From contig DUSU01000001.1 of assembly GCA_012842425.1 (NCBI GenBank), positions 1-49,685 of the forward strand: a stretch of DNA of 49,685 bases, given 5' to 3'. Below the pieces are notes generated by a model. The model had not been told where the DNA came from. It saw nothing but the letters and a program-made list of their open reading frames with translations, and did no database searches. Below, piece after piece: positions 26,277-43,621 of the stretch (the stretch's first letter is position 1; the number at the start of each line of letters is the position of its first letter). The stretch is from Candidatus Fermentithermobacillaceae bacterium (GTDB lineage: Bacteria; Bacillota; Sulfobacillia; Fermentithermobacillales; Fermentithermobacillaceae). The position numbers and the translations under genes were made by a program.

Positions 26277-26591
26277 ATGGCGCTTCCGAGTCTGACTCCT
26301 GCGGAGAAAAAGAAAGCGCTGGAGAAAGCCCAGACAATGCGAAGGGCACGGGCGGAGCTCAGGGCCAAACTCAAGAAGGGTGTCGTTAAGTTCGCAGACA
26401 TCCTGAACGACAAGGATGACGCAGTCATCCAGAGGATGAAGGTTTCTTACCTTCTCAAGTCTCTGCCCAGGGTCGGAAAGGTAAAGGCCGAGAAGATCAT
26501 GGAAGAGGTCGGGATAGACGAGTCCCGCCGCGTCCAGGGCCTCGGCAAGAGGCAGAGAGAGGCTCTCTTGGCTCGTTTCCTGGAGAAGTAG
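26277..26591 (+). CDS. mihF: Integration host factor, actinobacterial type (mIHF)
   Basis: A 104-residue nucleoid protein. The C-terminal part shows [18 protein letters not shown] followed by [18 protein letters not shown], the helix-two-turns-helix signature of mycobacterial-type IHF, which is unrelated to the HU-fold IHF. The basic N terminus ([20 protein letters not shown]) also fits. It binds DNA without sequence strictness and shapes the chromosome. AGGAGGGAG precedes ATG 26277. In actinobacteria this gene stands just before gmk, and here it precedes remA-gmk-rpoZ, so the neighbourhood is shared across phyla. Confidence 0.92.
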
Positions 26592-27729: not shown

Positions 27730-27748
27730 GGGACACAAACCGTGTCCC
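27730..27748 (+). promoter_or_regulatory. Hairpin over the priA start codon
   Basis: GGGACAC (27730-27736) and GTGTCCC (27742-27748) are exact complements separated by AAACC. The GTG start of priA is the first three bases of the right arm, and the only purine-rich ribosome site, AGGGG, is in the left arm. If it forms in mRNA, it would hide both signals and make priA translation dependent on rpoZ translation or on a factor. Confidence 0.5.
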
Positions 27749-29796
27749 TTAAGCAGGTGGAAGATGTAACATATCTGGATATTCTCGTGGACGTGCCGGC
27801 TGTAGGAGACCGGGCGTTCACTTATTATTGCCCCCGTGAGATCCGCCTTCCGAGGGGAGCCAAGGTTCGAGTTCCTTTCAGCCAGGCTATGGCCGACGGG
27901 TTTGTGCTCGGCGAGGTGAGCGAAAGACCGCCTTTCGCCATAAAGCCCATTGAGGGTGTCTACGACCTTTCATTTGTGCCGCCATCCGGTCTCTTGGACC
28001 TCATGGAGGAACTGGGGCGGTACTACTTGGCGACCACCGCGGCATCGTGGTCCTACCTATATCCACCTGTCGTGCCGCTAAAAAAGGTCGCCAAGATCCT
28101 GGAGGAAGGAGGGCTCAAACACGATCCTCCGGCACCGCAACCTGTGATGTGCGGCGATCACGATGCCGGCGGTGTGAGCCCCCCGGTGGGGGCGGGGGAA
28201 CCTGGATGCTCCGAGGACCGCACAGGGGCTGCTTTGTGGAAGAAGATGGAACAGGTGCCCGTCCTTTATGTATGGGGGAGCCCAGACTTCAGGTGGAAGC
28301 ACTACCTGAAGCTCGCTGAGGGAGTCCTTGCCGCGGGGAAGGGTGTGCTCTTTTTGGTTCCAGAGGCGAAGGTGCTTGACGGCTCTCTCGCCCGGCTAAA
28401 CACGCGGTTCCCCGGAAAAGTGTCTGCTGTAAACTCAGCGATGACGGGGCTCGTGCGGAGGGCTGCGTGGCTGTCTCTCCTCCGGGGAGAGATGAAGATA
28501 GGGGCCGGGACGAGGTCGGCTGCTTTCGCGCCCGTCCCGGACTTGGGGCTCATAGTCTTGGATGAAGAGGCCTCGCAGTCCCATAAGGCCCTTGACTGGC
28601 CGTTCTTCGACGCGAGGACGGTAGCCCTCGCCCGCGGGACAGAAGGCGCCCGGGTAGTGTTCGGGGGCGCATATCCGAGCGTAGAGGCAGTTCTAAACAT
28701 CGAGCGGTCAAGGTGGTCCTGCATACGTGAAGATTCACCCAAGGAGGCCGGCGGAGCGCGCCCCCAAGAGGAGGGGCCGCGGCTTAGGGTCATCGACCTC
28801 AAAGGGATGAGGCTTGGCCGCGAGATTATCTCCGAGCCCCTCAAGGAAGAACTGGAGGTCGCTTTCTCATCCGGGCTCCGGGCTGTGCTTTTTCTAAACC
28901 GGAGAGGCGATTCTTCACAGGTATCTTGCCGGGACTGCGGCAGCGTGGTATCGTGTCCCCGCTGCGGCGTTCCCATGGTGTACCATTCGAAAGAAGCCCA
29001 GATGGCGTGCCATACATGTGGCCTTAGGGAAGATGCTCCTGAAGTCTGCCCCGGTTGCGGCGGGCACAGATGGCGTTTTTCAGGTTTCGGGGTTGAGAAG
29101 GTCGAGGCGGAGTTCAGGGGGAAGTTCCCGGAGATCCCGGTTTTTAGACTTGACCAGGACGTTAGTAGGAAGTCGAGCCCTGTCGAGGTCCTCGGCGCTT
29201 TTGGCAAGGTCTCCCCAGCATGCCTGGTGTGTACGCAGATCGTCCTGGGACAGAGCCTCATACCGCCGGTAGGCCTGGTCGGGGTCCTTTCCGCCGATAC
29301 TTCCCTCAGCGTGCCTGACTTCCGCGCGTCTGAGAGGGCATATCACCTGCTTTCCGGTCTCAAGGACCTCGTGGATCGGCGCTTAGGGTCGCGAGGGTGC
29401 TTCCTGGTACAGACTAGAAACCCGGACCACCATGCCATCGTGGGAGTATCGGACGGCGACCACTTTTACGAGAATGAGCTTCAGATGAGAAAGATGCTGG
29501 GATATCCTCCGTTTAGAAGGTTTTTCAGGGTTAGGTTCGAAAGCAGGAGTTTCGATAAGGCAAGGGAAGCGGCATCGGAGTTCGCTTCCGAGATCGCTCA
29601 AGGCGGCGAGGTGACGGTGCTCGGTCCGGCACCGGCTCCCAAGCCGAAGATGCGGGGGGTATACCGGTGGCACGTCGCGCTCAAGGGCGATGACCACGGA
29701 AAGATCCTTGCGGAATGCCTGAGGGTTCTCGAAGCGAGACCTAAGCAGAGCTCGGTGAGGGTGTTGGTCGATGTTGATCCGGCCGACACGGAGTGA
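27742..29796 (+). CDS. priA: Primosomal protein PriA with degraded helicase motifs
   Basis: A 684-residue PriA homologue with an intact 3'-DNA-end binding domain (DILVDVPAVGDRAFTYYCP) and zinc region: eight cysteines from CRDCGSVVSCPRCG through CHTCG to CPGCGG. In the ATPase part the key motifs are lost: the Walker A position reads GSPDFRWKH (residues 179-187) instead of G-x-T-G-S-G-K-T, Walker B is DEEA (274-277) instead of DEEH, and the C-terminal GRAGR-type motif is LVDRRLG. It should therefore dock on replication forks but not unwind, as proposed for actinobacterial PriA. It remains long and in frame, so it is not a pseudogene. Start GTG 27742 lies in a hairpin. Confidence 0.92.
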   Translation: MSLKQVEDVTYLDILVDVPAVGDRAFTYYCPREIRLPRGAKVRVPFSQAMADGFVLGEVSERPPFAIKPIEGVYDLSFVPPSGLLDLMEELGRYYLATTAASWSYLYPPVVPLKKVAKILEEGGLKHDPPAPQPVMCGDHDAGGVSPPVGAGEPGCSEDRTGAALWKKMEQVPVLYVWGSPDFRWKHYLKLAEGVLAAGKGVLFLVPEAKVLDGSLARLNTRFPGKVSAVNSAMTGLVRRAAWLSLLRGEMKIGAGTRSAAFAPVPDLGLIVLDEEASQSHKALDWPFFDARTVALARGTEGARVVFGGAYPSVEAVLNIERSRWSCIREDSPKEAGGARPQEEGPRLRVIDLKGMRLGREIISEPLKEELEVAFSSGLRAVLFLNRRGDSSQVSCRDCGSVVSCPRCGVPMVYHSKEAQMACHTCGLREDAPEVCPGCGGHRWRFSGFGVEKVEAEFRGKFPEIPVFRLDQDVSRKSSPVEVLGAFGKVSPACLVCTQIVLGQSLIPPVGLVGVLSADTSLSVPDFRASERAYHLLSGLKDLVDRRLGSRGCFLVQTRNPDHHAIVGVSDGDHFYENELQMRKMLGYPPFRRFFRVRFESRSFDKAREAASEFASEIAQGGEVTVLGPAPAPKPKMRGVYRWHVALKGDDHGKILAECLRVLEARPKQSSVRVLVDVDPADTE

Positions 29797-29895: not shown

Positions 29896-31350
29896 TTGTT
29901 GGCAATTCATGAGATAAGGCGATTTGGAGATCCGGTGCTGCGCAAAGTGTCCCGGCCTGTCCCCCGTGTCAACAACGCAGTGCGCGAGATCCTCGACGAC
30001 ATGCTCGAGACTATGAGGAATGCTGCGGGGGCCGGTCTTGCCGCCCCGCAGATCGGCATTTCAAAAAGACTGGTCGTGCTAGATATAGGTGAGGGCCCCG
30101 TGTTTCTCGTGAACCCCGAGATCGTGTCTCGTTCAGACGAGACCCAGACGGGTGTCGAGGGGTGTCTCAGCCTTCCCGGATATATAGGTGAGGTGGAGAG
30201 GCCTCTCAGAGTGAGCGTCCGAGCTTTAGACCGCGATGGACACAGTGTTTGGATCGACAGCGAAGGGTATCTTGCCAGGGTGCTGTGCCACGAGATCGAT
30301 CACTTGGACGGGATCCTGTATACCGACCGCGCTTCGACCATATCGGAGGTCAAGAAGGGAGAGGCGGAAGAGTCCCAGGATGAGGAAGGTGAGGGCCGAG
30401 AAGTCCGCGCGGTCTTCATGGGAAGCCCGGAGTTCGCAGTGCCTTCCCTGGATGAACTGGTTTCCGCCGGAGTCAAGGTCGAACTCGTCGTTACCCAACC
30501 CGACAGGCCTTTTGGCAGGAAACAGGAGATCCGTTCCACTCCGGTCAAGGCAAGGGCGACGGAACTCGGAATCCCCGTCCTCTCGTGCGAGCGCGTCTCA
30601 GATCCCGACGTAGTGAAGAAGATCCTCGATGTAAAGCCCGACTTTGTCATAGTGGTCGCCTTTGGGCAAAAGCTTCCCAAGGAGATCTTGTCGGTGCCGG
30701 AGATGGGCTGTCTTAACCTTCATCCCTCGCTGCTCCCGAAGTACAGAGGGGGCAACCCCATTCAGAGGGCCGTCATGAACGGCGATGAGGTAACCGGTGT
30801 TTCCATCATCCACATGAGTGAGCGGATGGACGCCGGCGATATCGCGCTGCAGAGGGAAGTAGCCATAGGTCCAAACGAGACCTTCGGCACGCTGGAGAGG
30901 AGACTCGCGTCCCTTGGGGCGCATGCCCTCGTGGAGGTCGTGTACCTCATGACGCTGGGCAAGACCCCCAGGACCCCCCAAGACGAGTCAAGAGTCAGCT
31001 TCGCCCCGCACCTTTCCAAGGGCGAAGAAGTCATCGACTGGACGAGGCCGGCTCTTCAGATCCACAACCTCGTGAGAGGTCTTTCGCCAAGGCCCGGAGC
31101 AGTTACTTATATGGACGGAAAACGTATAAAGATATGGCAAACACGCGTGCATTCCGGACCTTCCAAAGGTTCTTACGCTCCGGGAGCTATAATCGGAGTA
31201 GAGGGAGAATCTATACTGGTGCAGTGCGGTGATTCGCCGATCGCCGTCACGGAAGTCCAACCGGAAGGCCGGAGTATCATGAGTGCCGCCGCGTTTCTCA
31301 TAGGACTTAGGTCAGAAACTCGCGCGTTCGGTGGGAGGGTAGAGACATAA
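29896..31350 (+). CDS. Fusion of peptide deformylase and methionyl-tRNA formyltransferase
   Basis: A 484-residue protein with two complete enzymes. Residues 1-150 are peptide deformylase with GAGLAAPQIG, EGCLSLPG and HEIDHLDGIL, whose Cys, two His and Glu bind the iron and catalyse removal of formyl from new proteins. After a charged linker (EGEGREV), residues from about 168 are formyltransferase (VFMGSPEFAVPSL, NLHPSLLPKYRGGNPIQRA, MDAGDIAL) that loads the formyl group on initiator tRNA, with a C-terminal RNA-binding part. The genes are normally separate neighbours; here no stop divides them. Two consecutive TTG codons (29896 and 29899) are possible starts, both after AAGGTGG. Confidence 0.94.
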   Translation: MLAIHEIRRFGDPVLRKVSRPVPRVNNAVREILDDMLETMRNAAGAGLAAPQIGISKRLVVLDIGEGPVFLVNPEIVSRSDETQTGVEGCLSLPGYIGEVERPLRVSVRALDRDGHSVWIDSEGYLARVLCHEIDHLDGILYTDRASTISEVKKGEAEESQDEEGEGREVRAVFMGSPEFAVPSLDELVSAGVKVELVVTQPDRPFGRKQEIRSTPVKARATELGIPVLSCERVSDPDVVKKILDVKPDFVIVVAFGQKLPKEILSVPEMGCLNLHPSLLPKYRGGNPIQRAVMNGDEVTGVSIIHMSERMDAGDIALQREVAIGPNETFGTLERRLASLGAHALVEVVYLMTLGKTPRTPQDESRVSFAPHLSKGEEVIDWTRPALQIHNLVRGLSPRPGAVTYMDGKRIKIWQTRVHSGPSKGSYAPGAIIGVEGESILVQCGDSPIAVTEVQPEGRSIMSAAAFLIGLRSETRAFGGRVET

Positions 31351-41562: not shown

Positions 41563-41569
41563 CTGAGGG

Positions 41570-43621
41570 ATGAGTCCGTCACTGGACGATTCAGTGAGGT
41601 ATGTGAAGGGCGTGGGCCCGCGTAGGGCCGAGCTCCTCAATGAGCTCGGAGTCTGTACGGCCCGAGATCTGCTCGACCATTTTCCCTTCCGGATCGACGA
41701 CTTCTCACGGGTTCTACCCATGGGACTCATCATTCCGGGTTCGGAAGTAACCGTGCAGGGCAAAGTTGTCTCCGCCGGCTTTGTGCATAGTACCAGGGGA
41801 AAAGCCTTCCGCGTGTGCATATCCGACGGTACCGGAGTGCTCTATCTCGTCTGGTACAACATGCCCTACATGTACCGGAGCTTCCGCCCGGGCCTTTCGG
41901 TCGCGGCTTCGGGGAAAGTTGAGTGGCGGAGAGGAAGCTTCGAGATCGCCCACCCGATCTGGCGGGAGAGCGGTACTCCCAGCGAAAAGGGGCCGGTCAT
42001 CCCCGTCTACCACGCGACTCAAGGCCTTACTTCCCAAAGCCTTCACTCGATCATTAAAGAGGCCCTGAAAGTGTACGTTCCTTACATAAGGCCCCTTATT
42101 CCCAAGTCGGTTTTGGACAAGCACGGCCTCTTAAGTGAGGTCCAGGCTTACAAGGCGATCCACAACCCCGACTCACCTGATATTTGGGAAAAGGCGCGTC
42201 GCACATTTGCCTTTAGAGAGATACTGAGCCTTCAGATCGGGCTTCTCTCGATGAAAGCCGAGGTAGAGAAAGCTCCTTCTCCTCAGGCGTTCACGAGATT
42301 TGACAAGGCCCAGGCGTTCTTGAGAGACCTGCCGTTCCGGCTCACACCTGCCCAACAGCGGGCCATACAGGACATAGGACGCGACCTCACTTCCGGGCGG
42401 ACCATGAACAGGTTGCTCCAGGGCGATGTAGGAAGCGGAAAGACCGTCGTAGCCATGTGGGGGCTACTCTCGGCGGTGGAAAACGGGTGGCAGGGAGCCC
42501 TCATGGCTCCGACCGAAGTCCTCGCGACGCAGCATTACAAGACTTTCTCCGAGCTTCTGGGAAGCAGGGCGCGGATAGGTTTTCTTTCGGGATCCACGCG
42601 GAAGAGCGATAGGGAGTCCACACTAGAGAGACTTGAGTCGGGCGAGATAGACATCCTGATAGGCACCCATGCTCTCCTTAGCCCGGAGGTCAAGTGGCGG
42701 AACCTCGGCTTGGTGGTTACGGATGAGCAGCACCGCTTCGGGGTCAAGGAGCGGCTAAAGCTCACCTCGGGCCATGAGATACTTCCCCATATGTTGGTGG
42801 TAAGCGCGACGCCGATCCCGCGTTCACTTGCCCTTACGCTGTACGGCGACCTAGACGTGTCGATCATGGACTCAATGCCTGAGGGTAGGTCTCCTGTTGC
42901 GACCAGGTGTGTAGGCCGGTCCGGGCGAGACCTGGCTTACAGGGCGCTAAAGGAGGAACTCTCAAAAGGGAGGCAAGCTTTTGTCGTTTGCCCGCTCATA
43001 ACTGAAGGGAAAACTGACAGAAGGGCTGCTTCCATAGTGAAAGAGGAACTTGAGAAAGGGCATCTCAAGGGAAGCATCTTGGGTCTCATTCACGGCAGCT
43101 TGTCCAAAAACGAAATAAACGAAACCATGTCAAGGTTTGTCGCAGGAGAGATCCAGGTGCTGGTGGCTACGACCGTTGTGGAAGTGGGCATTGACGTCCC
43201 CAACGCCACGGTCATGGTCGTGGAAGACGCCGATTCCTTTGGGCTCGCCACATTGCACCAGCTAAGGGGCCGGGTGGGCCGAGGTAAGCACCCTTCTGTG
43301 TGCTTTCTTATAGCGTCAACGGATTCGGGTCTCAGGCGACTCAAGGCTCTGGAGAAAATAAGCGATGGATTTGAAGTTGCCGAGATGGACCTCAGGGAAA
43401 GAGGTCCGGGCCAGTTCTTTGGGACCGCCCAACACGGAGTCCCGGATACCAAACTGGCCGAACTGGGGGTTTCTCTGGATGTTGTCGCCAGGGCTCGGGA
43501 AGAAGCCAAAGAGATGCTCTCTCTCGTGGAGTCTGGTTTTGCCCCGCCGGAGATCAGGGAGACCGTGGAGCGTATACGACGTAGATTCGGTGACCCGCTG
43601 GAGTACGGTCGCTCTCGCTAA
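41570..43621 (+). CDS. recG: ATP-dependent DNA helicase RecG
   Basis: A 683-residue helicase that reverses stalled forks and branch-migrates Holliday junctions. The wedge domain with an OB fold spans the first 150 residues (GVGPRRAELLNELGV; SEVTVQGKVVSAG). Helicase motifs are complete: LLQGDVGSGKTVVA (Walker A), MAPTEVLATQH, VTDEQHRFGVKER (Walker B), SATPIPRSLALT, and QLRGRVGRGKHPSV (motif VI). Length matches RecG. ATG 41570 follows TGAGGG closely, so the start might be slightly different. It is the last gene of a long operon. Confidence 0.97.
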   Translation: MSPSLDDSVRYVKGVGPRRAELLNELGVCTARDLLDHFPFRIDDFSRVLPMGLIIPGSEVTVQGKVVSAGFVHSTRGKAFRVCISDGTGVLYLVWYNMPYMYRSFRPGLSVAASGKVEWRRGSFEIAHPIWRESGTPSEKGPVIPVYHATQGLTSQSLHSIIKEALKVYVPYIRPLIPKSVLDKHGLLSEVQAYKAIHNPDSPDIWEKARRTFAFREILSLQIGLLSMKAEVEKAPSPQAFTRFDKAQAFLRDLPFRLTPAQQRAIQDIGRDLTSGRTMNRLLQGDVGSGKTVVAMWGLLSAVENGWQGALMAPTEVLATQHYKTFSELLGSRARIGFLSGSTRKSDRESTLERLESGEIDILIGTHALLSPEVKWRNLGLVVTDEQHRFGVKERLKLTSGHEILPHMLVVSATPIPRSLALTLYGDLDVSIMDSMPEGRSPVATRCVGRSGRDLAYRALKEELSKGRQAFVVCPLITEGKTDRRAASIVKEELEKGHLKGSILGLIHGSLSKNEINETMSRFVAGEIQVLVATTVVEVGIDVPNATVMVVEDADSFGLATLHQLRGRVGRGKHPSVCFLIASTDSGLRRLKALEKISDGFEVAEMDLRERGPGQFFGTAQHGVPDTKLAELGVSLDVVARAREEAKEMLSLVESGFAPPEIRETVERIRRRFGDPLEYGRSR

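Follow-up and report, generated by a model that had tools for sequence, protein, structure and literature searches.

The priA locus

The window (the whole stretch of 49,685 nucleotides that was analyzed) carries a priA gene with a GTG start at 27742..29796 (+). The ORF itself, Pfam/NCBIfam profiles and the flanking genes identify its 684-aa product as a pseudohelicase form of PriA. Profile searches placed PF17764, PF18319 and PF18074 in this order along the ORF, each over its cut-off, and the Pfam search returned no match to the DEAD or Helicase_C profiles there. The product scored 350.6 bits with TIGR00595 (cut-off 230), and the host assembly (1.68 Mb, 84% complete) held a single PF17764 match. 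The host is an uncultured, thermophilic Firmicute of the Ca. Fermentithermobacillaceae; among named records the nearest is Ca. Fermentithermobacillaceae bacterium UBA3951, at 77% identity. Gene order is rpoZ-priA-def/fmt-zinc peptidase-rsmB in the host and coaBC-priA-def-fmt-rsmB in B. velezensis, and Bacillus and Listeria, as Firmicutes, share the priA neighborhood with the host. The ORF is a single-copy gene and is syntenic with priA of other Firmicutes. Upstream of remA-gmk-rpoZ-priA lies a gene for an actinobacterial-type mIHF (26277-26591, +; NF041260, PF22525). Downstream, a single 484-aa ORF (29896-31350, +) encodes a fusion of peptide deformylase with methionyl-tRNA formyltransferase; the fusion occurs order-wide and in numerous further families of the class, with separate genes in others.

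The order, Ca. Fermentithermobacillales, was sampled with 17 genomes and 16 PriAs (families f1 and f2). In the class, whose name derives from a closed genome with predicted spore formation (PMC10215811), 154 genomes were searchable and 147 of them had a match to the 3'-end DNA-binding domain (3'BD). The PriA alignment comprised 118 sequences, 115 from the class and three outgroups, and columns conserved in ≥90% of the PriAs with a motor are referred to as keeper columns.

The motor motifs are degenerate or lost

Alignment to PriA of E. coli, Bacillus, Listeria and relatives showed that GVTGSGKTEVYL of active PriAs is changed to G-SPDFRWKHYL in the host. Walker A (motif I, residues 179-187, 28276..28302, +) reads GSPDFRWKH and lies opposite GVTGSGKTE, in the register that the original prediction had given; the P-loop is one residue shorter, only one of its three glycines remains and the lysine column is occupied by Arg184 (codon agg, 28291..28293, +). 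Walker B (motif II, residues 274-277, 28561..28572, +) is DEEA, as first read, where active PriAs have DEEH or DEEQ. The reported disappearance of the GRAGR-like motif also holds, as GLKDLVDRRLG (motif VI, 29356..29388, +) aligns to QVAGRAGR. Further losses, like that of the winged-helix domain treated below, were absent from the original prediction. Motif V is gone (29221..29253, +; CLVCTQIVLGQ for ILVGTQMVAKG, with GTQMxAKG turned into CTQIVLGQS), as are much of motif III (28663..28680, +; GGAYPS for GSATPS) and the LTxEQ stretch before Walker A. The PriAs of E. coli, Bacillus and Listeria, unlike that of the host, have GVTGSGKT, DEEH and QVxGRAGR. Averaged over the order, only 22% of the keeper columns are retained in motif I, 48% in motif V and 6% in motif VI.

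An ATP-binding lysine elsewhere in the protein had been named as one observation that would speak against loss of the motor. The pattern GxxxxGK[ST] occurs nowhere in the priA ORF, and arginine stands at the lysine column. RecG, encoded in the same window (41567..43618, end approximate, +) and outside the PriA system, served as an internal control and showed an intact Walker A, GDVGSGKT, in the motif scan.

The fork-binding parts are kept and the winged helix is probably gone

The 3'BD (residues 13-104, 27778..28053, +; PF17764, 50.8 bits), motif IV (VLFLNRRG, 28885..28908, +, by alignment), the cysteine-rich zinc region (CRR; 28927..29058, +; PF18319) with its eight cysteines and the C-terminal domain (CTD; residues 590-680, 29509..29781, +; PF18074, 65.6 bits) are all kept. 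The corresponding keeper columns are retained in the order at a mean of 92% (3'BD), 91% (motif IV), 99% (zinc region) and 92% (CTD), and the eight CRR cysteines are present in 116 of the 116 PriAs that span the zinc region. The claim that the 3'-end DNA domain and the zinc cysteines remain is in this way well founded, and the host shares 3'BD, CRR, lobe 2 and CTD with E. coli, Bacillus and Listeria PriA.

A poorly conserved, Pro/Gly-rich linker (residues 105-173, 28054..28260, +) replaces the winged-helix domain and the stretch preceding Walker A. The distance from 3'BD to lobe 1 is 42-74 residues across the order and 73 in the host, as compared to at least 103 in nearly all other PriAs (exceptions: G024, 57; G061, 80; G041, 86; G152, 49), 186-190 aa in Bacillus and Listeria and 125 in E. 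coli, which has a recognizable winged helix. Between pairs of order members dN in the linker is 0.40-0.51, vs. 0.08-0.24 in the other domains. The model of the E. coli winged helix spans 63 residues, so that order members with linkers of 42-49 residues cannot hold this domain; in the host, with its somewhat longer linker, the domain is likely absent. Linker lengths suggest that the winged helix is gone from most or all of the order. The PF21213 profile is uninformative on this loss, because E. coli PriA was its sole match among the proteins scanned. A different combination was seen in the PriA of G024 (L047, 2381-4393, −), which has an intact motor and a 57-residue linker, apparently without a winged helix; this domain can accordingly go while the motor stays.

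Judged by its motifs, the host PriA appears to lack all the features of an active SF2 helicase (GxxGSGKT, DExH, QxxGRxGR and winged helix). The central proposal of the original prediction stands: a PriA without plausible ATP hydrolysis or unwinding, with its fork-binding parts apparently kept, in a lineage with predicted sporulation.

PriA of the order is under purifying selection

Erosion of the winged helix, the linker and the catalytic motifs could indicate that PriA is dispensable in the order and that its gene is drifting to loss. Against such decay, dN/dS (NG86) between order pairs is about 0.11-0.18, with dS against G003 and G001 near saturation, and even the dead lobe 1 taken alone gives 0.09-0.16. 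No in-frame stops are present in the priA frames of the order, all eight cysteines are retained, and 79 columns are invariant over the 16 PriAs, including Gly179, Arg184, Asp274 and Glu276. The decay reading is largely refuted by these data and we give it very little credence. The substitution patterns instead indicate strong purifying selection on the kept domains (3'-end pocket, zinc region, motif IV and C-terminal domain). The motor is lost in 16 of 16 order PriAs, which come from separate assemblies and include one single-contig genome (G004), and this agreement excludes chance or assembly error.

The motor was lost repeatedly in the class

Loss of the motor was found in 25 of the 118 aligned PriAs, i.e. 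in the order (16/16) and in three further families, f28, f16 and f26 (3/3 each); the motor is present in the remaining 93. A loss in a Firmicute had been predicted and is indeed there, although not as a one-off, being order-wide and recurrent in the class. The PriAs of f16, f26 and f28 resemble those of the order in the Lys to Arg exchange, in the loss of motif VI and in the retention of zinc region, motif IV, 3'BD and CTD. They differ in that most keep a long linker able to hold a winged helix (the exception being G152, in f26) and in that the motif II histidine is retained in most. Three PriAs of another family, f8 (L048, L080 and L116), have DEAH or DECH at Walker B with the remaining motifs intact. 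Viral contigs were scanned for further PriA and none was found.

In a tree of RpoB+RpoC from 40 genomes the order adjoins f28 (support 86), while f16 falls together with G024, which has an intact PriA (98), and f26 clusters with other intact-PriA genomes (98); as the trees were run in quick mode, single support values need caution. Neither f16 nor f26 is a sister of the order on this tree. A single loss behind all helicase-less PriAs was rejected (AU p = 0.0025 on the RpoB+RpoC tree). Parsimony favors three losses, and a PriA tree computed with the motifs removed likewise needs three changes. From these phylogenies, at least two and probably three independent losses of the motor have taken place in the class, and the grouping of the order with f28 could conceal a fourth.

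A constant arginine replaces the Walker A lysine

The Walker A lysine column holds Arg in 25 of 25 helicase-less PriAs and Lys in all 93 motor-bearing ones. When each helicase-less PriA was aligned pairwise to five motor-bearing PriAs, the same Arg faced Lys in 112 of 125 alignments. The exchange of Lys to Arg at Walker A also marks the PriAs of Deinococcus-Thermus (PMC4504706).

The conservation of this arginine raises the question of residual activity, in which the shortened loop binds and slowly hydrolyzes ATP, so that PriA would act as a weak helicase or as a switch gated by ATP. The invariance of Gly179 and Arg184 and of both Walker B acids (D274 and E276) in the 16 order members would fit such nucleotide binding, as would the purifying selection on lobe 1. 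However, besides the shorter P-loop with its missing glycines, neither motif VI (QxxGRxGR) nor the LTxEQ region is preserved. In E. coli PriA, according to the work as cited in PMC4504706, K230R by itself abolishes ATPase and helicase activity, with primosome assembly and viability retained, and the same Arg is found in the ATPase-dead PriA of D. radiodurans (PMC4504706). We therefore regard residual ATPase activity as quite improbable. The constant Arg is probably structural, perhaps forming a salt bridge to a retained Walker B acid, and probably does not serve ATP binding. An AlphaFold prediction from two sequences reached a pLDDT of 36, too low for reading the Arg184 contact or the pore.

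Neighboring genes and possible partners

The mIHF gene lies 1.2 kb upstream of priA, and the host could in principle have acquired an actinobacterial-type PriA that moved along with it. Actinobacterial PriA is generally annotated as being without detectable helicase function. It is smaller and very divergent (PMC1193525), and the M. tuberculosis protein has been termed a "PriA helicase loader" (PMC5694481). The host PriA is similarly reduced and divergent, and both lineages have DciA instead of DnaD/DnaI. Unlike the actinobacterial type, however, the host protein is of the general type by family models, as PRK05580 models gave up to 407 bits and PRK14873 at most 157. The PriA tree of the class and outgroups further puts the order within the class, together with f28 and f6, and mIHF is common among class members whose PriA is intact. 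Such an acquisition is hence scarcely credible. The original prediction had tied the helicase loss to the adjacent actinobacterial-type IHF. The gene is real, by its NF041260 match, but the tie fails by distribution: roughly half of 61 relatives carry mIHF, many of them with the motor, and no convincing copy was found in the helicase-less f28. As a correlate of motor loss it is ruled out.

DciA (PF05258) was found in 17 of 17 order genomes and a DnaD/DnaB-type loader (PF07261) in none of the 17. Inside the class these two are nearly mutually exclusive; seven genomes have DnaD without DciA (G019, G027, G032, G037, G040, G049 and G056) and one (G050) has both. A link between motor loss and DciA was rejected, as most other genomes have DciA too and G040, a member of f26, is motorless with DnaD and without DciA.

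RecG of E. coli interacts genetically with the PriA helicase. Absence of RecG as the driver of motor loss was rejected, because every one of the 17 order genomes has RecG. Substitution by RecQ was rejected as well; the RecQ zinc-binding domain occurs in four of 61 relatives, none of them in the order. Another helicase, e.g. RecG or one of UvrD/PcrA type, might nevertheless unwind in trans with PriA only directing it. The order-wide RecG, with its intact Walker A in the window, agrees with this, and the same possibility has been raised for D. radiodurans (PMC4504706). On the other hand, RecG also occurs in the majority of class members whose PriA is active and is thus not specific, and no partner was found that is confined to the helicase-less lineages; neither RecG nor DciA nor DnaD cleanly separates these from the helicase-bearing ones. 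Help in trans seems to us on the whole unlikely, and it would add to an ATP-free role for PriA and not contradict it.

A model for PriA without a motor

At the fork, E. coli PriA recognizes the leading-strand 3' end and contacts the parental duplex via the winged helix, 3'BD and lobe 1, while CRR, lobe 2 (HD2) and CTD frame a pore around lagging ssDNA; restart by PriA-PriB in vivo is independent of the PriA ATPase (PMC10175261). The parts that the host PriA retains are the ones that handle the 3' end and form the pore. The closest characterized case is PriA of D. radiodurans, in which, by published description, the Walker A Lys is likewise exchanged for Arg and motifs I and II are poor. It shows no ATPase or helicase activity in vitro and binds forks, ssDNA and DnaB (Lopper et al. 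2015, PMC4504706). Compared by description with this protein from another phylum, the P-loop of the host is more eroded, and motifs V and VI as well as the winged helix are gone. The actinobacterial precedent invoked in the original prediction is accordingly apt as a reduced PriA, but it is not the nearest one.

From these kept parts, and in agreement with the D. radiodurans biochemistry, we infer that the sole PriA of the order acts as an ATP-free fork-binding platform that recruits DnaB, with DciA and not DnaD/DnaB as the loader. We hold this model as a whole to be highly probable; within it the loader role and the link to DnaB and DciA are inferred. The 3'BD would grip the leading-strand 3' end at D-loops and stalled forks, and zinc region, lobe 2 and CTD would enclose the lagging-strand ssDNA, as in E. 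coli PriA. The protein would neither translocate nor strip the nascent lagging strand; the platform would recruit the DnaB helicase, which DciA would load. Forks with an already single-stranded lagging arm may be served directly, and a second enzyme would be required where the lagging arm is duplex. Without a winged helix the protein could bind parental duplex less tightly, which speaks against a fully functional fork binder.

A broader and considerably more speculative proposal, which we put forward as an outside possibility, is that an ATP-free clamp arose at least three times in the class by exchange of the P-loop Lys to Arg, followed by erosion of the motifs and, in the order, of the winged helix, with the Arg as a selected lock. 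If so, the Arg lock would keep the lobes pore-forming and loader-competent, and restart would be tied directly to PriA binding and DciA-DnaB, with no remodelling.

A pseudohelicase PriA is already known from D. radiodurans, as is a small, divergent PriA from Actinobacteria. In the literature covered, which left out subscription journals, we found no report of a helicase-less PriA in Firmicutes. New are the order-wide loss, its recurrence in the class, the constant Arg and the loss of the winged helix along with the motor.

The PriA ATPase is dispensable in laboratory E. coli, yet the PriA motifs have been described as nearly universal. Their repeated natural loss in a single class, with the fork-binding parts kept, indicates that what is conserved in PriA is its role in recognition and loading. 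Sister lineages that differ in having the motor allow asking what the PriA helicase is for. The constant Arg and the loss of the winged helix provide concrete residues and domains for testing. For the helicase-less lineages, the annotated name "replication restart helicase PriA" misleads.
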